A stretch of 58,347 nt of DNA from assembly GCA_028284955.1 (NCBI GenBank), contig JANQQS010000118.1:1-58347 (forward strand), in the 5' to 3' direction. The DNA is from Myxococcota bacterium. Its GTDB lineage: Bacteria; Myxococcota_A; Polyangia; Polyangiales; Houyiibacteriaceae. The notes beneath the pieces were generated by a model, which was not told where the DNA came from, made no database searches, and saw nothing but the letters and a program-made list of their open reading frames with translations. Made by a program: the position numbers and the translations under genes. The number at the start of each line of letters is the position of its first letter. The stretch's first letter is position 1. Below, in pieces: positions 1 to 57,339 of the stretch.

Positions 1-120
1 GGGATCGTATCCCAGCCAGAGGGTCTGGGTGCCAGACCCTCAAAAAACACAGCTGGGTGAATCGGCGGGGTCGTACCCCGACGAGAGGGTCTGGGTGCCT
101 TGGGTGCCAGGCCCTCAGGC
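1..120. repeat. Dispersed GC-rich palindromic repeat (copy at left edge)
   Basis: This stretch consists of nested palindromes, including GGGTCTGG with CCAGACCC and CGGGGTCGTACCCCG. Positions 55-99 are an exact 45-nt reverse complement of 32695-32739 in the repeat array of the atp region. It lies just beyond the 3' end of the neighbouring minus-strand gene. It resembles REP/BIME-type intergenic elements in placement and structure, although the family itself is not one I recognise. The left boundary lies outside the window. Confidence 0.85.
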
Positions 121-125
121 AAACT

Positions 126-3071
126 CTAGACGCGGTCGAACCGAGACGCGCCTTCTTTGTCCCACCATTTGCGGTATTTTCGTTGAGCGGTTTCCCGTTC
201 TTTTTTCGGCAGGCTATGGTGATAGCCGTAGTAGGCCTGGGTAAGGCGCTTGAGTTCCGTGCTCGCAGCCGAACGAACAGACTCGTCTGAGTGCGTCAGG
301 CTGTCGATTAGCCATTCGATGCGGTGCCGGGAGTCGTTTCGGTCGGCCCAGTCGCGCCATTTTTTGTCGGAGAATTCGAAGTTCTGGCGCGTGATCGCGA
401 CGAGGCTTTCGAGCGCAGCATTGGAGATCGAAGACTCTTTTGCGCTCAACGAGTCGATCAAACCACGGAGCGAATCTACGTCGCGAAGCTCGCCGAGCGC
501 GCGAATCGCAGCGGCGCGAGCATCGATATCCTTGCGTGGCGCCAACGCGATCGCACGGACGGCATCCATGGCTTGGCTGTATTCGTCGCGAAAGCGCCGA
601 TGTAGGCGCAGGGCGTGAACGCTCGCCGCGCGAACGTCTGCGGCTTTGTCGGTGATGCGTCGGCTGAGAGGCACCGCGAGCACGGGATGGGGAATTTCGC
701 GGGCCAGGAGTACCGCGTAAAAACGAATGTGATCTTTGCGATGGTCGAGCAACGAAGGGAGGTACGGCGCTGCGCGGTCGCGAAACGCGACGAGCGTATG
801 CGCAATCGCTGAGACTTCGCGTCCTTCGGGGAACGAGTTGATGTTTTCGGATTTCGGTTTTCTCGGAGGAACCCACAGAGGCCCGGGGAACTCGCGAACG
901 AGAACAGGGAGCGCGGCGTCGCCAACTTCGAGCACGGCGCGTTCGAACTCCCCGTGTTGGGTTTTGGTGCACTTCACGAGCTGCTCCACCACGTCTTCGA
1001 CTTGGCTGCTCATGGTCACAATGACGCTGGGCGTTTCCGACGTGCGCTCGTTTCTCCACGGAGTAGGGCGGCTCTTGGTTGCGACCGGAGCCTCTGTCGG
1101 CGCAGGCCGCTCCGATGAGGCATCGGAAGGTTCGATATCGGCTCCGCGATCGTGGTGGCCAAAGAGCACAACATCCGGAACAGAGGGCAAACGTGGTGCG
1201 GAGTTGGTTGCTGGGTTTGCGGGCTGCTGCAATGGCGAGCTTGCCGATGGTCCAGGACGCAGCGTGCGCCCCCGTATGCGGTCAGGGCGAGGCTTTTTGA
1301 AGAGCACCTTGTCTGTGCGCTCAGATCGAATGCTGTAGCGACCGGCATCCGCGAACGCGGCATCCGTGTCGCGTTCTTGGTTGCTCGGCTCAGACGCGGC
1401 GTCTTCTGAAGGTTGGTCGTTTTGTGACGGTAGCGTCGGGGCGGGCGGTGGAGGCGCGGAACGAGGCACGCCAAGCGCGTCAAATACGCGCGGACGAGAC
1501 GGTGCTTTGCGGGGTCCGGGGTCGTCTTTTTCCGGGCGATCTTGGGGTTCCCTATCTTGAGGGGTTGCAGTGTCTTTGGAAGTCGCAGTGTCTTTGTGAG
1601 TCGCAGTGTTTTGAGAGGTTGCGAGTGTTTGAGGAGCGCGATCTGATGGCGCGACGTCGTCGCTCAGGGCGTCTGGAGATGGCTGTGGTGTTTCTTCCGC
1701 GCGCAGCGATTTATGTTTTTTTTTATCGTCAGGGAACGCGGAACCAGATCGCTTCTGCTTGAGAATCAGGCGTTCCAGTGCACGACTGGTATGCGGCACG
1801 AGGGCCATGAGTTCCGGCAGATCTGACAGGGCGAACCGTTCGTTGCTGCGATCTCCGTAGAGCAGCAAAACCACCCGGCTGCGAATCGGCACAGGAACGA
1901 GGGCGGCAGGTTGCTCTTTATTGCGATCGAGTTCGCGGACCAGTCGTCGTTCGTCGTCTTTGCCGCGCAGACTCGACACCAACGCCTTCCCAGAAGTCTT
2001 GACCTCGTGCAGCGAGCTGCTGGGAATGAGCTGAACCGACACGAGCTGTACTGCTTCCGATGCGGCGCCTTCTCCATGCGCGCTGAGCCCTTCGAGCGCC
2101 TCCCCGTGGACAACGAAGAGCGCGGAGTAATCAAAAAACTGACGCGCGAAGGTAAAAAACAGTTCGACGATTTCGTCTCGTGTCTCGCATCCGTCCAGAA
2201 TCTCGACCGCGCGTTTTGCGGTAAGAGGTCCGCGCAGTCGCGCTTCAGCGATGCCTATCTTGGGCGTTTCGGAATCGAGAGTGCCTGGTTTGGACGGCCT
2301 CGGCTGGGGCGGTGCTCCCGATGGTCGACCGCGATCCATCTGCGAGGGCGGGCGTTCGGTAAACGAGACCCTTCGTACCCGGTTGCGACTTCCCACGCCG
2401 ACCACGCGCGTGACGCCCACGGTTTTGTCGTGCGCTGTTTCGGGAGGTTTTACGAACTGATCGGTTGCGCCTTCCGTCGGGTATCGAACGTCTGCCCCGG
2501 AGCGCGAGGTGACCGATCGAACGACGGCTTGATTGTTGGCTTCGGTAAATTCTGGTTCGTTGTGATCGTCGGGTGCCACAAACGGGATGCTGCCCGCGCC
2601 GCGATCATTGAGGCGCCGGGTCAACCGGCGCATTCGCGGGGTCGGCTCGATGCCGTAGTGTTGATGGAGCCCCGCGGCGATTCGTGCTTCGGTCGCGATG
2701 CGCATCTCGATATCGACACCAAGCAGGAAACTCAGTTTTTGATCCACATCCACCGAAAGCGGTTGTCGAACGGCGGCCACGAGTTTCCGGCCGTCGAGCA
2801 TCAACGGAACCAGGCGATGCTTCTTGGCGACCTCGCTGGGCACGAGTCGAATGGATTCGGCGGAGGCCTCCATGACTTCGCTTCGCGTCGCGGGAATTAA
2901 GCCGTGCAGCGCAGCGCAGTATGCGCTGATGACGTTCTCAGGAACCGCGTCGAGTTCGAGTAGGATGGTATCCAGCTCTCCGCCAGAGATTACCTGGCGT
3001 TGGATCGCTTCTTCGATCCGCTTGACGGATACCACCTGGTCCCGCGCGAGAAGAGAAGTCAGGGCAGACAT
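126..3071 (-). CDS. MshEN-like / GAF-like / HEAT-repeat protein
   Basis: Cytoplasmic multidomain protein of about 981 residues with no signal peptide or membrane segment. Residues 2-150 resemble the N-terminal domain of type II secretion/type IV pilus ATPases (MshEN/T2SSE_N), with two helical L-x3-L repeats followed by a small alpha/beta unit. The ATPase domain is absent. A segment near 285-430 looks like a GAF-type sensor domain. A long Pro/Ser/Thr/Asp-rich linker follows, then HEAT-like helical repeats from about 740 to the C-terminus. MshEN domains in other proteins bind c-di-GMP, but the RLG signature is not evident here. The linker contains four 18-bp tandem repeats at 1564-1635. The ATG at 3071 is preferred; an in-frame TTG lies three codons upstream. 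The last 130 residues resemble those of the protein at 8118-9272. Function unknown, probably scaffolding or regulatory. Confidence 0.8.
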   Translation of the reverse strand: MSALTSLLARDQVVSVKRIEEAIQRQVISGGELDTILLELDAVPENVISAYCAALHGLIPATRSEVMEASAESIRLVPSEVAKKHRLVPLMLDGRKLVAAVRQPLSVDVDQKLSFLLGVDIEMRIATEARIAAGLHQHYGIEPTPRMRRLTRRLNDRGAGSIPFVAPDDHNEPEFTEANNQAVVRSVTSRSGADVRYPTEGATDQFVKPPETAHDKTVGVTRVVGVGSRNRVRRVSFTERPPSQMDRGRPSGAPPQPRPSKPGTLDSETPKIGIAEARLRGPLTAKRAVEILDGCETRDEIVELFFTFARQFFDYSALFVVHGEALEGLSAHGEGAASEAVQLVSVQLIPSSSLHEVKTSGKALVSSLRGKDDERRLVRELDRNKEQPAALVPVPIRSRVVLLLYGDRSNERFALSDLPELMALVPHTSRALERLILKQKRSGSAFPDDKKKHKSLRAEETPQPSPDALSDDVAPSDRAPQTLATSQNTATHKDTATSKDTATPQDREPQDRPEKDDPGPRKAPSRPRVFDALGVPRSAPPPPAPTLPSQNDQPSEDAASEPSNQERDTDAAFADAGRYSIRSERTDKVLFKKPRPDRIRGRTLRPGPSASSPLQQPANPATNSAPRLPSVPDVVLFGHHDRGADIEPSDASSERPAPTEAPVATKSRPTPWRNERTSETPSVIVTMSSQVEDVVEQLVKCTKTQHGEFERAVLEVGDAALPVLVREFPGPLWVPPRKPKSENINSFPEGREVSAIAHTLVAFRDRAAPYLPSLLDHRKDHIRFYAVLLAREIPHPVLAVPLSRRITDKAADVRAASVHALRLHRRFRDEYSQAMDAVRAIALAPRKDIDARAAAIRALGELRDVDSLRGLIDSLSAKESSISNAALESLVAITRQNFEFSDKKWRDWADRNDSRHRIEWLIDSLTHSDESVRSAASTELKRLTQAYYGYHHSLPKKERETAQRKYRKWWDKEGASRFDRV
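1564..1635. repeat. 18-bp tandem repeat, 4 units, in coding linker
   Basis: Four imperfect units of 18 bp (first unit GTTGCAGTGTCTTTGGAA on the plus strand) encode a repeated six-residue TAT-x-KD pattern in the disordered linker of the MshEN/HEAT protein. The unit length is a multiple of three, so changes in copy number keep the frame. Confidence 0.85.
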
Positions 3072-3228
3072 GGTCGGCAATAAGCTCGTTTGGTTTGTCG
3101 ACGCTGCATGGTTTGCCCGCGCAGCAGGTCGCGCTGACGCAGGGCGCTAGCACACTCGACGGGCATTCTACCTCTTGAGCATGGTCGCTTCGGGGTGCTT
3201 TCGTGTCAATGTCTAATAGCGACAATGT

Positions 3229-16157: not shown

Positions 16158-16603
16158 GCGCCTGTAGGCAGGGCGACATTTCAGACCTGGAATGTTGGGA
16201 ATCGCGCGAAAGCTGGTGCGCGAGAGTCGAGTTCGCGTCTGACACGGCGAGCGATAGAGGTTGCGCGCTCCCCCTTGCAGGTGACATTGTTTCAAGCCGA
16301 ATTAGTGCTGCGAGAATTCCCGCGCTGCGGCCGAATCGTTCAACTCATGAAGAAGTTTTTTTAGTCCATACGCAACTGCTCGCGGCGTCAGCCGATAAAG
16401 GGACATTCTCTCGCGGTCGGTCTTCCGAGAGCTTGGAGCTCCCGGGATTGGCAGTGGGAGCCAGGTCGACGGCGTGAATGGGGTCGACGGCGTGAATGGG
16501 GTCGACAGCGTGAATGGGGTCGACGGCGTGAATGGGGTCGGCAAGAGGAAAACAGCCCAATCGTTTTTTGATGTGTACTTCGTGTTGGTTTTCGGAGGTT
16601 ACG
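16158..16603. other. Intergenic region with 18-bp repeats upstream of FG-GAP gene
   Basis: This 446-base gap carries no convincing gene. On the minus strand an 80-codon frame (16302-16544) exists, but its first half is just the translated tandem repeat. A shorter internal frame beginning M-S-L-Y-R-L could encode a 34-residue peptide and is preceded by GAGAGA; I rate that as weak. The main structure is the repeat at 16465-16542. GGAGG at 16594-16598 serves the following gene. Confidence 0.5.
16465..16542. repeat. 18-bp intergenic tandem repeat, 4 units
   Basis: Four units of GTCGACGGCGTGAATGGG (one with a single change) plus a partial fifth lie about 60-140 bases upstream of the first FG-GAP lipoprotein gene. 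Each unit contains a GTCGAC palindrome. The repeat could modulate promoter spacing or bind a protein, or be neutral. Confidence 0.93.
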
Positions 16604-18532
16604 GTGAACGGATTTCAGAGCTCATTGGTTTCGAGTTATCGGGTATTGATTGTAGCGGCGTGGATCGTGGTGGCGGGCTGCGGCGGTGCAGATTGCCCAG
16701 AAGGGCGCATCATGATGGACGGCGAATGCGTCTGTCCGGAAGACGCCGGCGCGACTTGTGCCCCGGCGGATGGTGGTATGCCGGCGGAAGAAGACGCGAG
16801 CCGACCTCTCGCTGATCCTCCATCGGCCAACGTGGTGGCTCGATTCCCTTGGAACGGGTACGCGACGGGCAGCATTCGTGCGGCCGGCGGGCGCGCGAAG
16901 GTAGACCCGCTACGCCCGAAGTTCATGTGGGAGATCATCGACGACGCCGTCTTCTATCAGTTTCAAGCCGACAACTCGTGCGAGATTGGCGCGTTTTCCG
17001 ACTGCGCATTCGACAGCCCCGAGCTCGACGTGCAGGTGACAGAATCGTTCGACGATTGGCGCGAACGCGGCGTGCCTGAAAACGTGATCGGTTTTACTCC
17101 CGACGAAGACTTTCCAATCGAGCGCAAAACCGCAGCGCCGGTCGGAGAGCGCTACTTTTGGCGCGTGCGCGCGTGCACCGAAGAAGAATCGTGCACCGAG
17201 TGGACGGATGTTCGCTACCTCGACGTGGGTCGACTGACCAACGACTACAACGGCGACGGGTTCGGAGATGTGCTGGTGGGCGGATCCGGAGACGATTCTC
17301 TCAGGGGAGCCGCTGTTGTTTACTTCGGCAACTCGGACGGAAGGATTTCGCCCGCGGCGTCGGAAGACCACGGGTGGTCGTCAGGAACGGCGTTCGGGGC
17401 ATCGGTTTCTGAGGCCGGCGACATCAATGGAGATGGGTTTGGCGACGTGATCGTCGGCGCTCCAAACTTCGGCACGGGTAGCGGTGCTAACAAGACGCTG
17501 GCGGGCGCGGTGCTGGTGTTCTACGGCTCAGCGACCGGGCTGACAGATGGCGAAATCCTCCAAAACCCTGATTTCCAAGGCGGACGTTTTGGCCGAATCG
17601 TATCGGGGGTTGGTGACGTGAACGGAGACGGTTTTGCGGACGTCGTCATCAGCGCGATTGATCAAGACCGAGGCGCAGCGCGAGAGGGAAATGCGTTTCT
17701 CTATCTAGGTTCGGCGGTTGGTCTGCGAGTGGAGCCAGTGGTGACATTTGACAATCCTACGAATCAGGAGGGCGGTCGGTTCGGCGTGGTCGCTCCAGTG
17801 GGTGACATAGATGGTGACGGGTTCGTGGATATCGTAATTGGCACGACCGAATACAATGCAGCAGAATCCAAAGCGGGCCGAGCGTATGTGTATCTGGGTA
17901 GCTCGGAAACGATATCGAACGAACCAGACGCGACGCTCGAAAATCCGGAGCCCGAAACCGCACTTCGGTTTGGTGCGGTCGGCACCGGAGGCGACTTCAA
18001 CGGTGACGGGCTGAGCGACTTGTTGATTGGTGCGCCGGACGAATTGCGATCCGAGTCGCCGGGCGCGGTCTACGTGTATTTCGGAATCACTACCGGGGTA
18101 GCTCTGTCGCCCGGGCAGCGAATCAGCAATCCACTTGATGAGCGCGGCACAAGATTTGGGTTCTCACTCTCTGGTGGGCACGACCTGGACGGCGACGATT
18201 TCGCTGACGTTGCGATTGGCGCCTACGGAGCAATCGGTGGCTCCGGGGAGCAATCGGGCACCGTCCATGTGTTTTCGGGCTCGGCGGAGGGCATCGAGGA
18301 AAGCGATTCGAGGAAGATCGACGGCCAAGAGACGGAATCCTTCGGTTTTTCGGTTTCTACCCAGACAGACACCCAGGGCGACGGCGTTTACGATTTGGTT
18401 GTTGGGGATCCTGGTTTTCGCAACGGCCGGGCATACGTCTTTCTTGGGATTGCCACCAGCGGCGTGCGACCCAACGACGCGACCATTGTGGGTTTCGGTG
18501 CGACCAAAAGATTCGGATTGTCCGTTCGCTGA
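16604..18532 (+). CDS. FG-GAP repeat lipoprotein (copy 1)
   Basis: 642 residues. The lipobox is V-A-G-C (Cys26). A short Cys-rich stretch (CPEGRIMMDGECVC) follows, then an Ig/fibronectin-like domain (about 85-205: P-L-R-P-K-F-M-W to Y-F-W-R-V-R-A-C), then about seven FG-GAP repeats with Ca-binding loops such as DYNGDGFGD and DINGDGFGD, which fold as an integrin-alpha-like beta-propeller. Such proteins usually bind ligands or surfaces outside the cell. GTG 16604 is chosen because GGAGG at 16594-16598 is five bases away. The next gene encodes a protein of the same length and architecture, so this is a tandem duplication. Confidence 0.9.
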   Translation: MNGFQSSLVSSYRVLIVAAWIVVAGCGGADCPEGRIMMDGECVCPEDAGATCAPADGGMPAEEDASRPLADPPSANVVARFPWNGYATGSIRAAGGRAKVDPLRPKFMWEIIDDAVFYQFQADNSCEIGAFSDCAFDSPELDVQVTESFDDWRERGVPENVIGFTPDEDFPIERKTAAPVGERYFWRVRACTEEESCTEWTDVRYLDVGRLTNDYNGDGFGDVLVGGSGDDSLRGAAVVYFGNSDGRISPAASEDHGWSSGTAFGASVSEAGDINGDGFGDVIVGAPNFGTGSGANKTLAGAVLVFYGSATGLTDGEILQNPDFQGGRFGRIVSGVGDVNGDGFADVVISAIDQDRGAAREGNAFLYLGSAVGLRVEPVVTFDNPTNQEGGRFGVVAPVGDIDGDGFVDIVIGTTEYNAAESKAGRAYVYLGSSETISNEPDATLENPEPETALRFGAVGTGGDFNGDGLSDLLIGAPDELRSESPGAVYVYFGITTGVALSPGQRISNPLDERGTRFGFSLSGGHDLDGDDFADVAIGAYGAIGGSGEQSGTVHVFSGSAEGIEESDSRKIDGQETESFGFSVSTQTDTQGDGVYDLVVGDPGFRNGRAYVFLGIATSGVRPNDATIVGFGATKRFGLSVR

Positions 18533-18581
18533 CCATCGATTGGTTTGTGCGCGACTCGATGTGTCGTTTCTGGAGTGATGT

Positions 18582-20510
18582 ATGGATTATGTAGTTGGGT
18601 ATTGTGGGCGCGCGTTGATCGTCGCAGGCATGGTCGGTTGCGGCGGTCTTGACTGCCCCGCGCCTCGGGTAGTCGGTGACGATGAAGCGTGCGTATGTCC
18701 TGATGGGTTTGCGGAAGATGGCGACGGATGTCGCGCCGTGAGCGCCGACGAAAACGAGGCACCGTCGGCTGTCGAACCTCCGGATGCGGTTGTTGCGCGG
18801 TACCCCTGGAACGGCTTTGCGACAGGAAGCGTGCATGCGGCGAGAGAGGTTGCAGTTCATCCGCTGCGTCCGAAGTTCATGTGGAGCTCAGCATCCGGCG
18901 CGGAATCTTATCAGCTACAAATCGAGGCCGACTGTGCGATTGCGTCGTTCCGTACGTGTGCGTTTGAAGAACCGGAGGCGGATATCCGAGTGGCGGAAAC
19001 TACCGCAGTGCTTTCTGAAGACCTGCCGGTGTCGATGGTGCCACCGGTGGGGCGGCGTTACTTTTGGCGCGTCCGCGCATGCGCCGCAGAGGATACGTGC
19101 TCGGCGTGGACGGAAGTTCGCTATCTCGATGTGGGTCGTTTGACGTCCGACTACAACGGCGATGGCTATTCTGATGTGCTCGTGGCAGCGCCGAGGGCCG
19201 ATGCGGGAGGATTGCAGGGAGCAGGTCTTGTGCGGGTGTTTCTCGGAGGCGCTTCCGGAGTGGCCCCCGATGCCGTCGCGACGCTGCAAGATTCGAGCGG
19301 CCGATTCGAAGGCCGATTTGGTCTTGCGATCGCCGCGGTCGGCGACATGAACGGAGATGGTTTTTCCGAAGCAGCGGTGGCTACTCACGGAGCAGAGTTT
19401 CGAGCCGACAGCCAGGTGCATCTGTTTTGGGGGTCGCCCGATGGTCTCCAGCCTGACGAGCGCACCGTCATTAACGAGCCGACGCCGCAGCCGATCAGCG
19501 GGTTCGGCGAAGCCATTTCCTCGGGTGGGGATCTTGATGGAGACGGCTTTCGTGATTTCGTGATCGCCGCACGAAGGCAAGCAAACGGCGCTCAGGATGA
19601 GGGCGCGGCGTTTGTGTTTTTTGGTTCCGAAGCGGGCGTGAATGCGGAAGAATTGGTCACGATCGACAGCCCGGAGAATCGCGCATCAGACAACTTCGGC
19701 GGTGCCCTTGACGTTGTTGGCGACCTGAACGGAGACGGGTATTCGGACATTGTGATCACTCGGCGAGGTGCCAACCCCCTGGACGCTATGCCTCGGATCG
19801 CAGAAGTGTACTGGGGCAACCAGGAACGGCGACTCGAAGAGTCTGCTCGGTCGCTTGCCGTCCATGTCGGGCCGGACAAAGAGACAACGCCCAGCGGAGT
19901 TGTCGGCGTCGGGGATCTAAACGGCGATGGGTTTTCGGATGTCTTGGTCAGCTCACGATCTCTAGATACAAGCGGCTTCTTGTCCGACGATTTTGAGACG
20001 AGAGGTCACGTATTCTTGGGCGATACCGAGATTCGTGAGCTTGGCGCAGTGGTACTTGAGGACCCTTCGGGAAACGATGAATCCTATGCTAGCGCACTAG
20101 GCCGCGCCGGGGATCTGAACGGCGATGGGTTCGCCGATTTGATCGTCGGGTCACCACGCGCCGAAGATCGCGGTATCGCTGAAGCCGGCCTCGTATATCT
20201 CTATTTCGGCGCATCTTTCTCGCCGCAAGAAGCTGAGTCGTGGCCAAAGCCAGAAGCGTTTTTCGCGGCGTCTCCTCAGGCCGGCGTGGGGTTCGCCTCC
20301 GCGGGGTGGGCCGATTCGGACACCAATGGAGACGGCTACTCTGACTTGATCGTCGGAATTCCAGACAAGCGAAATCCCAACAACCCCCGAGAACATGGTG
20401 CTGCGCAGGTGCACCCCGGTTCGCCACGCGGTCCGGTGGCAACCGAGTTTGTTCCGCTCCGGAATACGATTGTGGATGGATCCTCGAGCTTCGGTGAACG
20501 CGTTCGCTGA
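18582..20510 (+). CDS. FG-GAP repeat lipoprotein (copy 2)
   Basis: 642 residues, the same length as copy 1. The lipobox is MVGC (Cys20), followed by G-G-L-D-C-P and a VCPDGF Cys-rich stretch. The Ig-like domain ends R-R-Y-F-W-R-V-R-A-C, then W-T-E-V-R-Y-L-D-V-G-R-L-T leads directly into DYNGDGYSD, the first of about seven FG-GAP propeller blades. Strong collinearity with copy 1, against clearly different blade sequences, points to an old duplication followed by divergence of the binding face. GGAG at 18572-18575 lies six bases from ATG. The gap to copy 1 is 49 bases, so they are probably cotranscribed. Confidence 0.9.
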   Translation: MDYVVGYCGRALIVAGMVGCGGLDCPAPRVVGDDEACVCPDGFAEDGDGCRAVSADENEAPSAVEPPDAVVARYPWNGFATGSVHAAREVAVHPLRPKFMWSSASGAESYQLQIEADCAIASFRTCAFEEPEADIRVAETTAVLSEDLPVSMVPPVGRRYFWRVRACAAEDTCSAWTEVRYLDVGRLTSDYNGDGYSDVLVAAPRADAGGLQGAGLVRVFLGGASGVAPDAVATLQDSSGRFEGRFGLAIAAVGDMNGDGFSEAAVATHGAEFRADSQVHLFWGSPDGLQPDERTVINEPTPQPISGFGEAISSGGDLDGDGFRDFVIAARRQANGAQDEGAAFVFFGSEAGVNAEELVTIDSPENRASDNFGGALDVVGDLNGDGYSDIVITRRGANPLDAMPRIAEVYWGNQERRLEESARSLAVHVGPDKETTPSGVVGVGDLNGDGFSDVLVSSRSLDTSGFLSDDFETRGHVFLGDTEIRELGAVVLEDPSGNDESYASALGRAGDLNGDGFADLIVGSPRAEDRGIAEAGLVYLYFGASFSPQEAESWPKPEAFFAASPQAGVGFASAGWADSDTNGDGYSDLIVGIPDKRNPNNPREHGAAQVHPGSPRGPVATEFVPLRNTIVDGSSSFGERVR

Positions 20511-31805: not shown

Positions 31806-32678
31806 ATGGCCAGCCTGAAGGACATTCGCAAGCGCATCGGGAGCGTCAAAAACACGCAGAAGATCACCCGAGCGATGAAGCTCGTGGCGGCGGCGCGGTT
31901 GCGCAAAGCGCAGCAAAACATATTGGAGCTTCGACCCTACGCAGTGAAGACGATGGAGGTGCTCAGCGCAGTTGCCGCGCGGGCAGGCGAGAACGAAGAA
32001 GTTCATCCGCTCCTCGCGCGCAGGCCGCCGAAATCCACCATGCTTGTGGTGCTGAGCAGCGATCGAGGCCTAGCCGGAGCCTTCAACGCCAGCATCTGCA
32101 AAAAGGCGCACCAAAAATGGCGCGAGCTTGAGTCGGAAGGGAGCGAGGTGTGCTTTTCGGTGGTGGGCCGAAAAGGGCGAGATTATCTAAAGCGCCGCGG
32201 CGCGGATATTCGTCACGAGTTCACCGGCGTGTTCGAAGACCTTTCCCCGGAGCGTGCGGGAGACATCGGTCGCTACATTGTCGACCAGTACGTTCGTGAA
32301 GAGTCCGGCTTGGACGCTTGCTACCTCGTCTACAACGAATTCAAGAGCGCGATCAGTCAAGACGTGGTGATTGAACCATTGCTTCCCATTACCCCCACCG
32401 AGCTCAGCGAAGACCAAATGGGCGACTTTCTGTACGAGCCCGACAAAACTGCGCTGCTTGATACGCTCCTTCCTATGTACGTGGACATCGAGGTGTACCG
32501 CGCGTTGCTCGAGTCGGTAGCTTCCGAGCACGGCGCCCGGATGACAGCAATGGACGCAGCGACCAACAACGCGAGCGACATGATCGGCAAACTCACGCTG
32601 CAGTTCAACCGCGCTCGCCAAGCCGCGATCACCAAAGAGTTAATGGAAATCATCGGCGGCGCCGAGGCGCTGCGCTGA
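31806..32678 (+). CDS. atpG: ATP synthase F1 subunit gamma
   Basis: 290 residues, normal length. The N-terminal A-S-L-K-D-I-R-K-R-I-G-S-V-K-N-T-Q-K-I-T block and the C-terminal A-M-D-A-A-T-N-N-A-S-D-M-I-G-K-L-T-L-Q-F-N-R-A-R-Q pattern form the rotating coiled-coil shaft. It starts three bases after the atpA stop codon. Instead of atpD next, the sequence runs into a GC-rich repeat array 11 bases downstream and an opposite-strand kinase gene. Confidence 0.97.
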   Translation: MASLKDIRKRIGSVKNTQKITRAMKLVAAARLRKAQQNILELRPYAVKTMEVLSAVAARAGENEEVHPLLARRPPKSTMLVVLSSDRGLAGAFNASICKKAHQKWRELESEGSEVCFSVVGRKGRDYLKRRGADIRHEFTGVFEDLSPERAGDIGRYIVDQYVREESGLDACYLVYNEFKSAISQDVVIEPLLPITPTELSEDQMGDFLYEPDKTALLDTLLPMYVDIEVYRALLESVASEHGARMTAMDAATNNASDMIGKLTLQFNRARQAAITKELMEIIGGAEALR

Positions 32679-32689
32679 TTTAATTAGGG

Positions 32690-33425
32690 TCTGGCACCCA
32701 GACCCTCTCGTCGGGGTACGACCCCGCCGATTCACCCAAACTCCCCCGCCAGGAACCACGTGACATGGTTACGTGGGGTCGAACTGCCGGGGCCCCGCCG
32801 CTTCGCGGTGGGGCGGACGCGAAGCGGCCGGCGTCGGGAGGGGGGACCCGGTCGGGTCGTACCCGACTGGGGGGAGGGGCTGCGGCCAGCCCCTCCGGAG
32901 AAACGCAGTGCACCCAAACCCTCTCGTCGGGGTACGACCCCGCCGATTCACCCAAGCTCCCCCGCCAGGAAGCACGTAACCAGGTTTCGTTGTGCAGAAC
33001 TGCGGTAGCGGATCCGAGGTGTTGTCTTCGATCCGAGTCTTGTCCCACCGCGAAGCCCAACGTAACCGGGGCCCCGTCGCGCAGCGATGGGGCGGCCGCG
33101 CAAGCGGCCGGCGTCGGGAGGGGGGCCCCCGCGGCTGTTTTGTTTGAGGGTTTGGCACCCAAACCCTCTCGTCGGGGTACGACCCCGCCGATTCACCCAA
33201 GCTCCCCCGCCAGGAGGCACGTCACCTGGTTTCGTTGTGCAGAACTGCGGTAGCGGATTCGAGGTGTTGTCTTCGATCCGAGTCTTGTCCCACCGCTGAA
33301 GCCCAACGTAACCGGGGCCCCGTCGCGCAGCGATGGGGCGGCCGCGACAGCGGCCGGCGTCGGGAGGGGGGCCCCGCGGAATTGTATTCCGCGGGGGGAG
33401 GGGCTGCGGTCAGCCCCTCCAGAAA
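32690..33425. repeat. Array of GC-rich nested palindromic repeats within the atp locus
   Basis: Three modules recur. Module A (ACCCTCTCGTCGGGGTACGA and on to CACGT) begins at 32702, 32918 and 33163. Module B (GGGGCCCCG to CGGGAGGGGGG) begins at about 32789, 33068 and 33313. Module C (GGGGAGGGGCTGCGG with CAGCCCCTCC) ends at 32896 and 33420. Positions 32918-33129 and 33163-33375 are almost identical direct repeats of about 212 bases. Many self-complementary units are nested inside, for example CCGCGGAATTG with TATTCCGCGG. A 45-nt part matches the left edge of the window exactly in reverse orientation. All reading frames here translate the repeat and are not genes. It fills the space between atpG and the kinase gene. 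Confidence 0.92.
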
Positions 33426-33426
33426 C

Positions 33427-34638
33427 TTAGAACTGAGCGATGAGCATACCGCCGGCGATGGCGACGGCGATGCCCAGGCCGAAGCATAGGATGAGGGCGG
33501 TTTTGGAGAGCGGGGGGCGTTCGTTCTGAATCGCGATTTCTCGGGAGTCGCGCATCAATGGAGGTAGCTCGCCGCGAGCCGATTCGCTTTCTCGGAGCAG
33601 CGGCTCGACTTGGTGGGATGCTACCAGGGCGCGTGTGCTGCTTGGAGGAATGAGCGTGCTTGCTCGCCGTGTTCCCGTGATCATGAGCTCTTCGCAGCGG
33701 TCGTCGGAAACATGTGGGAGCAAGGCTTCGATGACCTCCATCATTGAAGCGAATCGGTCGGACGGTAGTTTTTCAAGTGTGCGGAGCACGATGTCGCGCA
33801 GCGCTTCGGGAATCGGCGTCCCGGAGGGGCTGGTGAGTGGTGGCACGGGTTCGTGCACGTGTGCAGAGAACACACGAATCGGCTGGCGATGTTCAAACGG
33901 CAGCCGTCCGCAGAGCATTCGGTACAGCAGGATGCCGAACGCATAGATATCCGTACGCGTGTCGACGGGCGCGCCTTGAATCTGCTCGGGCGCCATGTAG
34001 TTGGGCGAACCTAGGAACTGGCCCTTTTGAGTGACGCTCTCTTCGGACGAAAGGTTTTTGGCGAGACCAAAGTCGAGCACTTTCACGAGTTCGTCGGGGG
34101 TGCCCCGATCGGTCAGCACGATGTTGGCGGGTTTCAAGTCGCGGTGCACGATATTGAGCGCATGGGCCGCGTGAAGGGCTTGGGCGACCTGCAGCGCGAC
34201 GCGCGCAGCCACTCCAGCGTCGAGCGCGCCTTTGTGCGCGAGCACGTCGGCCAAGGTGGGGCCTTCGACCAGCTCCATGGCGATAAAGTAGAGCCCTCGA
34301 TCGGTTTTCCCGTGGTCGAAGACACGAACAATATTGCGATGACGCAATTCCGCGGCGATGGACACTTCGATTGAAAACCGAGCATGAAATTCTGCCTCGT
34401 CCCCAGCTGCAGGAATGCTGGGGTCAAGAATCTTGAGCGCTACATCAATGCCACGTTTGAGGTCGACTGCGTGATAGACCCGGCCCATGCCGCCTTTGGC
34501 GATCAGCCGAAGCACTGTGAATCGGCCGTTGAGCTCTCGGCCGACGAGCGGGTCGGGCCGGCTTTCGAGGCTCGTGTTTTGCTCAGAAACGATGTGCACG
34601 AGGGGTACGGCGTGGCCGCAACACCTTATGCGGCGCAC
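33427..34638 (-). CDS. Hanks-type Ser/Thr protein kinase with C-terminal membrane anchor
   Basis: Up to 403 residues. Kinase motifs in order: A-K-G-G-M-G-R-V-Y (47-55; Ala replaces the first Gly of the loop), catalytic Lys69 (VALK), HRDLKPAN (165-172), DFG (189-191) and SPNYMAPE (211-218). A Ser/Arg-rich linker follows and a single membrane helix near the end (379-401), so the kinase faces the cytoplasm on a C-terminal anchor with almost nothing outside. There is no sensor domain. It lies opposite to and inside the atp gene order. The start is uncertain: GTG 34638 or GTG 34599, neither with a good Shine-Dalgarno. Targets are unknown; neighbouring ATP synthase subunits are a speculative possibility. 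Confidence 0.9.
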   Translation of the reverse strand: MRRIRCCGHAVPLVHIVSEQNTSLESRPDPLVGRELNGRFTVLRLIAKGGMGRVYHAVDLKRGIDVALKILDPSIPAAGDEAEFHARFSIEVSIAAELRHRNIVRVFDHGKTDRGLYFIAMELVEGPTLADVLAHKGALDAGVAARVALQVAQALHAAHALNIVHRDLKPANIVLTDRGTPDELVKVLDFGLAKNLSSEESVTQKGQFLGSPNYMAPEQIQGAPVDTRTDIYAFGILLYRMLCGRLPFEHRQPIRVFSAHVHEPVPPLTSPSGTPIPEALRDIVLRTLEKLPSDRFASMMEVIEALLPHVSDDRCEELMITGTRRASTLIPPSSTRALVASHQVEPLLRESESARGELPPLMRDSREIAIQNERPPLSKTALILCFGLGIAVAIAGGMLIAQF

Positions 34639-34717
34639 CTATACAGTCTTCATGACTGGCTGCGCGGCGGCAAGCTTGACCGCCAAGGATTTGCCGCAGA
34701 GTGTCGTTCGCGCGGAG

Positions 34718-34751
34718 TTTTTTTGCGGTTTTTCAGCGTTTTTTGCGTTTT
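34718..34751. promoter_or_regulatory. Phased T-tracts (likely intrinsically curved DNA)
   Basis: Four T-runs (34718-34724, 34729-34733, 34739-34744, 34748-34751) have centres about 10, 10 and 8 bases apart, close to the helical repeat. Phased A/T-tracts bend DNA. The site sits in the 272-base divergent region between the kinase gene and atpD, a place where bending could affect both promoters. I cannot assign exact -35/-10 boxes. Confidence 0.6.
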
Positions 34752-34772
34752 GGGAGCCGTGCATGACGTTGA

Positions 34773-36347
<1,575 letters not shown>

Positions 36348-38339: not shown

Positions 38340-38406
38340 TTTGTTGCTTGGCGAACTGCCGGACATCATCGAAGATGAAGCCGTGCACGAGGCACCTCTT
38401 GCGTGG

Positions 38407-39237
38407 ATGACGGCTTCGCGAACGACCGGATCACGCCGGCTTTCTGCATCAACGTTGAACTTTGCGGGCCGAGGCTTCGCAGCGTCGATTTGCGCGGCAT
38501 GTATCCTCGCGGGATCGATAACCGGCTGCTCCACGACTCCGCAGAACGACGTGGCATCGATATTTCGTTCGGACGTCGACGAAGTCATCTTGGAGGTCGA
38601 CTACCAAGAAGGCGCAGCCCCCTTCGTGGGTGACTTTCGGAACGGAACGCAGGTATGGGGACTCACGGAGGACAACGCCAACGCATTGTTTGGCGCGAGC
38701 TCGGCGATGCTCGATATCCCGACCACGCTCGACGACATGGAAGAGATCGAAGTCGCATCCGAGCAAGCGTTTGGCTCAGCGGACATCGTGGAGATCGCCG
38801 AAGCGAATCGCAGCCCACTCAATTCCGACGCTCGGCGCGGAATCTACGTTGTGTTTCTCGATGGTTTTTTTGAGCGAAACGGAACTCCGCAACGACAGGT
38901 TCTTGGCGTGTCGATCAACGGGCGCGGCATTATCGCGATGTTCAAGCCCGTGATCGAAAGCGCGGCGCCTGCGCCTCTGCGTGCGTTCGTCGAGCAATCG
39001 GTATTGATCCACGAGTTCGGCCATGCGGTAGGCCTCGTCAACTCAGGGCTACCACTTACTTCGGACCATCATGACGCGGAAAACGGAGCTCATTGCACCA
39101 ATCGTCAGTGCGTGATGTACCATCAGAACGAAGGCATCTCGGACATTATCGAATTCGCGGTTCGCGTCCGAGAAACCGGGAGCAACGTGCTGTTTGGGGA
39201 GGAGTGTGTAGACGATGCCCTCGCCGCCAGCGACTAG
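38407..39237 (+). CDS. Putative zinc metalloprotease-like lipoprotein
   Basis: 276 residues from ATG 38407. The lipoprotein signal ends at ITGC (Cys41), with Ser at +2. A zinc-binding helix HEFGHAVGL (His202, Glu203, His206) is followed by N-S-G, H-H-D-A-E-N-G-A-H-C and CVMYHQ, whose Met237 could form a Met-turn. The third ligand position of the classic HExxHxxGxxH is Asn rather than His, so the third ligand may come from the downstream His cluster. Probably a cell-surface peptidase of metzincin type; the substrate is unknown. Earlier in-frame starts exist (TTG 38341, GTG 38383) but the chosen one gives the most normal signal peptide. The stop codon lies inside the left arm of the inverted repeat that follows. 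Confidence 0.72.
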   Translation: MTASRTTGSRRLSASTLNFAGRGFAASICAACILAGSITGCSTTPQNDVASIFRSDVDEVILEVDYQEGAAPFVGDFRNGTQVWGLTEDNANALFGASSAMLDIPTTLDDMEEIEVASEQAFGSADIVEIAEANRSPLNSDARRGIYVVFLDGFFERNGTPQRQVLGVSINGRGIIAMFKPVIESAAPAPLRAFVEQSVLIHEFGHAVGLVNSGLPLTSDHHDAENGAHCTNRQCVMYHQNEGISDIIEFAVRVRETGSNVLFGEECVDDALAASD

Positions 39238-39364
39238 AGCGGCGGCCTTTTGGCCAGAGCGCGGCTTTCCTCCCCTGCTCGCTCGGACGAAGCACTATTC
39301 GTGCGTCATCCGAGCTGCGCTGCCGGGGCGCTCGCGCTCTGGCCAAAATTCCGCCGCTCTAGTC
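39232..39364. mobile_element. 133-bp inverted-repeat element (MITE-like)
   Basis: The outer arms 39232-39262 and 39334-39364 are 31 bases long and complementary at 29 positions; each starts GACTAGAGCGGCGG when read inward. An inner hairpin (CTCGGACGAAGCAC, TATTC loop, GTGCGTCATCCGAG) fills most of the middle, so the whole piece can fold as one long cruciform. No gene is inside. The TAG in the left arm is the stop of the protease-like gene, and the TAG in the right arm would stop minus-strand translation. It could be a miniature inverted-repeat element or a bidirectional transcription terminator; target-site duplications cannot be defined from this copy alone. Confidence 0.75.
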
Positions 39365-57183: not shown

Positions 57184-57194
57184 TCACGCGAGCG

Positions 57195-57285
57195 AATCGC
57201 CTTCGCAATCGAATCGCCTTCGCAATCAAATCACCTTCGCAATCAAATCACCTTCGCAATCAAATCGCCTTCGCAAGCAAATCAC
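57195..57285. repeat. 17-bp intergenic tandem repeat, 5 units
   Basis: AATCGCCTTCGCAATCG-type units tile 57195-57279 with 17-bp period (units differ by one to three bases), plus a partial sixth. The repeat lies between the acyl-CoA dehydrogenase stop and the next gene. As at 52930, the non-coding repeat has a unit length that is not a multiple of three. Confidence 0.93.
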
Positions 57286-57339
57286 ATGGGGCGCGTAAAG
57301 GGTGTGTCGTGGCCGCGTGTTCCGTTGTACTCTCGCGCC

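Follow-up and report, generated by a model that had tools for sequence, protein, structure and literature searches.

The window, namely, the whole stretch of 58,347 nucleotides analysed here from a bacterium of the class Polyangia, carries a composite array of hairpin repeats at 32686-33426. This array occupies the gap between atpG, on the plus strand with its TGA stop at 32676-32678, and a Ser/Thr kinase gene on the minus strand, whose stop lies at 33427-33429. An earlier note, made from the sequence of the window, had already recognised the array but placed it at 32690-33425; the corrected bounds take in nearly the whole gap between the two genes. The closest named matches of atpG come from Sandaracinus and other Myxococcota assemblies, with a best identity of 79%. 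Over 31806-36347, the array and the opposite-strand kinase gene split atpG from the next plus-strand ATP synthase gene (34788-36347), and in several relatives another ORF starts at most about 30 nt after the atpG stop. Elsewhere in the window, short tandem repeats of 17 and 18 nt lie at or beside ORF ends (57187-57290 and 16464-16535), and nine copies of a 43-nt repeat at 17414-20148 encode a GD.NGDGF-like motif, which we take to resemble FG-GAP/VCBS repeats. The features of the array, of a second array and of a partner element termed F2 are included in Table 1.

Table 1. Hairpin array, second array and partner element in the window.
Feature	Positions	Strand	Basis
AT-rich 5' tip, from atpG stop to hairpin 1	32679-32685	+	CTGATTNAATTAGGG recurs behind another gene (C213:48369)
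Unit 1, hairpin H1 (AGGGTCTGG CAC CCAGACCCT)	32686-32706	+	fold; arms covary
Unit 1, hairpin H2 (32708-32730) and conserved ATTCACCC tail	32708-32737	+	covariation, covariance model
Unit 1, B module: H3 palindromes, TCGGGAGGGGG linker	32787-32849	+	self-comparison
Unit 1, C module: H4, then H5 (32873-32896, GGAGGGGCTGCGGCCAGCCCCTCC)	32847-32896	+	repeat comparison, fold, covariation
Unit 2: A (without H1 5' arm), long linker hairpin, B; then CCGCGGCTGTTTTGTTTGA junction	32910-33134	+	self-comparison
Unit 3: A and B with the long linker hairpin between them; 226 nt shared with unit 2 at 96.5% identity	33147-33379	+	blastn, fold
Unit 3, C module: H4, H5 (33397-33420); ends 6 nt before opposing kinase stop	33373-33420	+	fold, cluster scan
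Second array, truncated by contig end: two H1-H2 units behind stop of gene 126-3080 (-)	1-114	-	
F2, MITE-like element of 123 bp, flanked by TA at either end; ends GAGCGGCGG/CCGCCGCTC	39237-39359	.	inverted ends

Three units drawn from a common set of hairpin modules make up the array, in the order A-B-C / A-B / A-B-C. Module A comprises H1, H2 (TCGTCGGGG-TACGA-CCCCGCCGA), the ATTCACCC tail and a C-rich linker; module B, the H3 palindromes and TCGGGAGGGGG; and module C, H4 and H5. Comparison of the region with itself by blastn bore out the fixed order of modules proposed in the earlier note, with weaker copies of both parts in 32694-32899, as well as the near-identical copies (32910-33134 and 33155-33379) and an exact reverse copy, in which 54-99 is 100% complementary to 32693-32738 over 46 nt. 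The latter sits in the second array, on the minus strand. As a correction to the earlier description, the middle unit lacks the 5' arm of H1. Units 2 and 3 are adjacent, with a spacing of 245-246, and these near-identical 245-bp units likely reflect gene conversion or tandem duplication within arrays. The two units tested gave RNA fold z-scores of -4.66 and -6.42, with none of 200 shuffles as stable; H2 and H4 of unit 1 have largely complementary arms and can therefore pair with one another as well.

Copies of the repeat are by no means confined to the window, and the refuting condition set by the earlier note, a genome without further copies, is not borne out. The 6.07 Mb genome, assembled in 223 contigs, holds 228 exact 20-base cores, TTCACCCRARCTCCCCCGCC (128 on the plus and 100 on the minus strand; none for the core read backwards), and at least 80 aligned pieces were found with 40 of 288 candidate places scored. 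Dispersed copies are up to 95% identical to each other. Many contigs end within repeats (for instance, C137:1-114, C111:1-324 and C184:97149-97736), which implies that the assembly breaks there and that copies may have been undercounted. Stop codons also adjoin another repeat family, which starts TAGAGCRCTGATCTTTTGGCCTGATTGCGGC and often lies at contig ends (C18:3140, C20:5839, C88:97).

Outside this genome the distribution is patchy. The core occurs 18 and 7 times in G007 and G014, both of one genus of the same family, and is absent from the remaining 180 of 183 genomes of the order, the backwards control giving 0 throughout. A pattern for the 3' part, with 41 matches in the genome itself, has 34, 11 and 8 in three genomes of another family (G034, G180 and G053), and 1, 2 and 1 in G160, G166 and G175, some of which look like chance. 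Viral contigs, plasmids and phages held no match to the repeat, and no Rfam family came near a gathering score for it.

Repeats were compared in a sample of 1,805,906 bases, 76,839 of them N (1.73 Mb unmasked), from 44 contigs including the window, part of which was picked for strong matches; it includes 71 of the 228 cores, and its module matches group into 70 clusters. Within this sample the stems change by compensatory substitution. First, all 68 H1 copies pair at three variable positions (TCT/AGA in 52, TTT/AAA in 16), where shuffles average 55.7 and reach 60 at most. Second, 65 of 67 copies of H5 are paired, with three arm types. Third, 26 of 42 H4 copies are fully paired, against a shuffle mean of 9.7. 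The same holds between genomes, since 11 sequences from three of them have two-sided changes at 9 of 18 pairs (shuffle mean 4.7). Template switching can also keep the arms of a palindrome equal.

A covariance model of H1-H2-tail, termed R1, was then used to search 317 genomes of the class, with a cut-off of E <= 0.001, and matched 18 of them. Three are the genome itself, G007 and G014, and another six all belong to one genus and gave between 6 and 16 scored hits apiece; family f22 accounts for four, where hits number 6 to 13, and the last five have one weak hit each. One of the six (G157) is Polyangium sp. 15x6 (100% over 4000 nt), and the genus is thus taken as Polyangium. Its motif, GTCCC-GAGGGGGACGC-CTC-GCGTCCCCCTC-TCGTCCGGGC-AAA-GCCCGGACGA-TTCACCC, has little in common with that of the window beyond the frame GAGGG...CCCTC...ATTCACCC. 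In Polyangium and f22 together, 38 distinct sequences show two-sided changes at 15 of 18 pairs, and 96.3% of the cells of their alignment pair, as compared with 76.1% for shuffles and at most 64% for slid versions, in an alignment that was fitted to the model and favours structure to that extent.

Position relative to gene ends, which the earlier note had marked for checking, was evaluated in the sample with genes from our own simple gene caller (81% coding). The repeats adjoin 3' ends and are enriched between convergent genes. Of 56 clusters with a gene upstream of hairpin 1, 47 have the nearest one on the same strand and nine have it opposing; 14 more lack such a gene. When it lies within 60 nt, the strand is the same in 32 of 36. 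Downstream, the nearest gene is opposing in 39 of 59 clusters, a further 11 being without one; for genes at most 60 nt away the figure is 20 of 22. Where both neighbours are present (45 clusters), 25 pairs are convergent, 17 tandem and three divergent, whereas convergent gaps make up 20% of intergenic bases (p about 2e-7).

This relation extends to the stop codon itself, which forms part of the repeat tip. Among 77 H1 pattern matches, a few of them due to chance, 44 lie no more than 120 nt from the end of a coding ORF, and the offsets of that end from H1 recur and track the sequence of the repeat, namely, 0 or -1 (TTGAGGG, ATTAGGG), 8-9 (CTGATTNAATTAGGG, CTAGTTAATTTGAGGG) and 21 (TAGAGCACTGATCAGTTTGCCTGAGGG). 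Tips of TAGAGC type, which belong to the family of the window and to F2, coincide exactly with the in-frame TAG of a predicted gene in 19 of 35 cases, and in the window's family there are also tips that provide a TGA or a TAA. Of 1123 predicted stops in the sample 517 are TAG, more than any other codon, and the most frequent context of a stop is TAGAGC (48 of 1122). CTAG is scarce there, with 1459 occurrences against about 6151 expected from base composition, of which 189 are C plus a TAG stop.

At the array in the window, atpG ends in AEALR*, while 20 of the 22 relatives printed have two residues after that leucine (KG, KA, NG or HG) and the remaining two end in K. This would fit a swap of the last codons for a repeat tip, although it is weak evidence alone. 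TTAG is present at both 32684-32687 and 33427-33430, which is at most a possible TA duplication, as a match of four bases may be due to chance. In 80 named Polyangia atpG loci (639 kb), R1 found no match (best E 0.56) and a regular-expression scan likewise none.

More can be said of the ends of the partner element. F2 has clear inverted ends, and TA flanks both of them in 11 of its 13 copies of 123-bp length, in a search that did not require TA, which represents 1.8% of dinucleotides. The genome contains a 21-base end of it 47 times, and the TAG stop of ORF 38341-39237 is made of TA plus the first G of F2. The TAG of F2-type tips does not always follow C, and CTAG is hence not obligatory. The family of the window starts directly after the TA of an F2 end at five places; its own ends, GCTGTGTTTT.TGAGGG and CCCTCC..AAAACACAGC, appear to be inverted, though many of the copies deviate. 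A search of the genome gave no clean empty site within F2.

In Polyangium, 25 fetched loci gave 22 distinct elements, 19 of them with a coding stop within 150 nt. The stop is a TAG exactly 4 nt before GAGGG in six of the 22, and the right end reads CTC then TA in 13 (counted by eye). The same pattern gave seven elements in f22, in three of which a coding stop precedes GAGGG by 0-1 nt, the other four lacking one within 150 nt. One orthologous site could be followed across six Polyangium species. First, in G155 and G157 a single CTAG is common to two convergent genes, so that TAG is read from both sides. Second, in G154 the element lies between two CTAGs, each of which is the stop of one gene. 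Third, G153 has tips only (TAGTCCCGAGGGGGAGTGTTCTAG), as might be left after an internal deletion. The site has diverged in G158. That of G156 holds other hairpin repeats, about 280 bp in length (L419, query positions 902-1011 of the L379 comparison). Insertion at a shared stop codon is thus shown once, by the filled and empty states of this single clean site, where the duplicated target appears to be TA or CTAG. At a second site, filled in G154 and empty in G155, CTAG is kept on the right but not on the left, where the flank is not TA, and for a third element, carried by G155, the corresponding place in G154 is occupied by unrelated DNA. Tenzen and Ohtsubo reportedly found in 1991 that IS630 prefers TA in CTAG.

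Taken together, it seems probable that the array was put together from non-autonomous mobile repeats, similar to MITEs and BOX elements, which enter at TA, often that of a stop codon, and rebuild TAG. This reading builds on direct observations of copy number, position and orientation at gene ends, the stop in the tip, compensatory stems and one filled and empty site in Polyangium. The units of the class Polyangia would be strings of GC-rich hairpins, modular like BOX, that enter at TA dinucleotides, often inside CTAG, and are tolerated mainly at the 3' ends of genes. On insertion, the G of the tip would join the TA of the stop codon to rebuild TAG, given that G is the first base of those element tips that adjoin TA, and both convergent genes would thereby retain a stop codon. 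Repeated insertion within or next to older copies, together with tandem duplication, may then give arrays such as A-B-C / A-B / A-B-C. A DDE or other transposase supplied in trans presumably moves the elements, and a reason for keeping the hairpins may be that folding is important for mobilisation or for the 3' ends of mRNA.

The element is short, present in high copy and without a transposase gene, as in MITEs. The mobilised or gene-converted non-autonomous element of the earlier note is retained insofar as the repeat is high-copy, modular, placed at gene ends and more than a simple REP sequence, but not as regards a REP-associated tyrosine transposase (RAYT). Mobility itself is demonstrated for the homologous Polyangium motif by the filled and empty site; for the family of the window we infer it from copy number, identity of up to 95%, patchy distribution and shared ends, and its target would be that of the Polyangium element. 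The IS630-type domain DDE_3 (PF13358) is absent from the assembly and from two element-bearing Polyangium genomes (G156 and G158), and the TA-flanked ends of IS630 genes of relatives, when found, differ from the repeat tips. A MITE driven by IS630/Tc1-mariner is therefore not supported. Against the favoured reading as a whole count the failure to find a transposase with matching ends, the doubtful TA duplication at the array of the window, the left flank of the second Polyangium site, the different DNA of G156 and G158, F2-type tips without a preceding C, tips with TGA or TAA, and the fact that a DDE transposase does not need hairpin conservation.

Much less probable is that the repeats are host-owned structures of mRNA 3' ends, acting as barriers to exonucleases or to read-through from one convergent gene into the other, which are kept by selection and made alike by gene conversion rather than transposition. 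Orientation and position at stop codons, compensatory changes of the stems both within the genome and class-wide, and the fold z-scores all agree with such a role. However, the distribution is patchy, with the core in three of 183 genomes of the order and R1 in 18 of 317 of the class; no intrinsic terminator-like site, that is, a GC hairpin with a T run, occurs in 32300-33800 (shuffles average 1.2); and the element is present or absent at an orthologous Polyangium site. The arrays may nevertheless possibly play a part at host mRNA 3' ends.

We consider unlikely a REP, REPIN or BIME system mobilised by a RAYT (a Y1 HUH transposase), despite palindromes, high copy number, mosaic units and a 3'-end location as for REPs (PMC3733652, in the part available). 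There is no conserved GTAG tag, and H2 variants such as TGGCTGGGATACCATCCCAGCCA have lost CGTC; the REP super-families with GTAG or CGTC were rejected because neither tag stands unpaired at the foot of a hairpin. The RAYT that the earlier note suggested looking for was not found: the genome has a single, weak Y1_Tnp gene (30.6 bits), a Y1/HUH transposase-like gene of 302 aa at 1432-2340 of L031 (G000:C158), with no repeat adjoining. Moreover, G053 has repeats but no Y1_Tnp, and the lone 3-core match near a Y1 gene (L305) belongs to G177, a genome without the 3'-part pattern. Finally, local tandem duplication alone, by slippage or unequal exchange of the 245-bp units and spread by ordinary recombination, accords with the adjacency, spacing and identity of units 2 and 3 and was likely the last step of the array in the window, but as the sole explanation it is refuted by the recurrence of the unit junction and the modules at dozens of unlinked sites and is hardly credible.

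Entry of non-autonomous repeats at TA, with a tip that begins with G, suggests how such elements could stay nearly harmless in a gene-dense genome, because at a CTAG common to convergent genes insertion would give each gene its own stop. Gene C-termini can be supplied by repeats, which also explain contig breaks in the assembly. A bolder extension, which we offer tentatively as somewhat less probable than its contrary, is a mobile superfamily across the class Polyangia that is recognised by structure, GAGGG-stem-CCCTC-stem-ATTCACCC, the stems being rewritten but still paired. Its members would be mobilised by an enzyme, enter the CTAG shared by convergent genes and bring their own stop, and their arrays might serve host mRNA 3' ends. 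If the stems truly drift while paired, they would offer a natural test of structure versus sequence as seen by the enzyme or the host.

Among the titles and abstract openings listed in searches of open literature, none describes repeats of this kind in myxobacteria, Sandaracinus or Polyangium, or MITEs that carry stop codons. The general kind of repeat is already known in bacteria; a tip that rebuilds the stop, and hairpin strings conserved in layout but not in sequence, are not mentioned in the portions of the descriptions of RUP and other TA-ended MITEs used for comparison below. REPs, BOX, RUP and SPRITE all typically lie next to the 3' ends of convergent genes, a position that selection against other sites can produce (PMC3733652, PMC3049150, both in part). 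First, TA-ended MITEs such as RUP, Correia/NEMIS and ERIC are, in the section consulted, short non-coding repeats with inverted ends and TA termini (PMC2229807), and RUP, with about 110 copies, is over-represented between convergent genes (PMC3049150). The TA ends found here recall MITEs of IS630/Tc1-mariner, and ISY100 is described, in the available portion, as inserting almost only at TA, which it duplicates (PMC2170065). However, the ends of RUP match IS630-Spn1, while no matching IS was found for the Polyangia repeats. Second, REP, BIME and REPIN sequences are palindromic, often composite and located within 20 bp of the 3' ends of both convergent ORFs (PMC3733652, in part), from which the present repeats differ by having no GTAG or conserved CGTC tag, no adjoining RAYT and larger, multi-hairpin units. 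Third, BOX elements are modular (boxA-B-C), 67-637 bp in length, nested in clusters, folded and biased towards convergent genes (PMC3049150, in part). By this description the Polyangia repeats are like BOX in their modules, composite arrays, folding and convergent bias, and unlike it in being GC-rich, in belonging to a different phylum and in having as modules pairs of hairpins with stop-codon tips.
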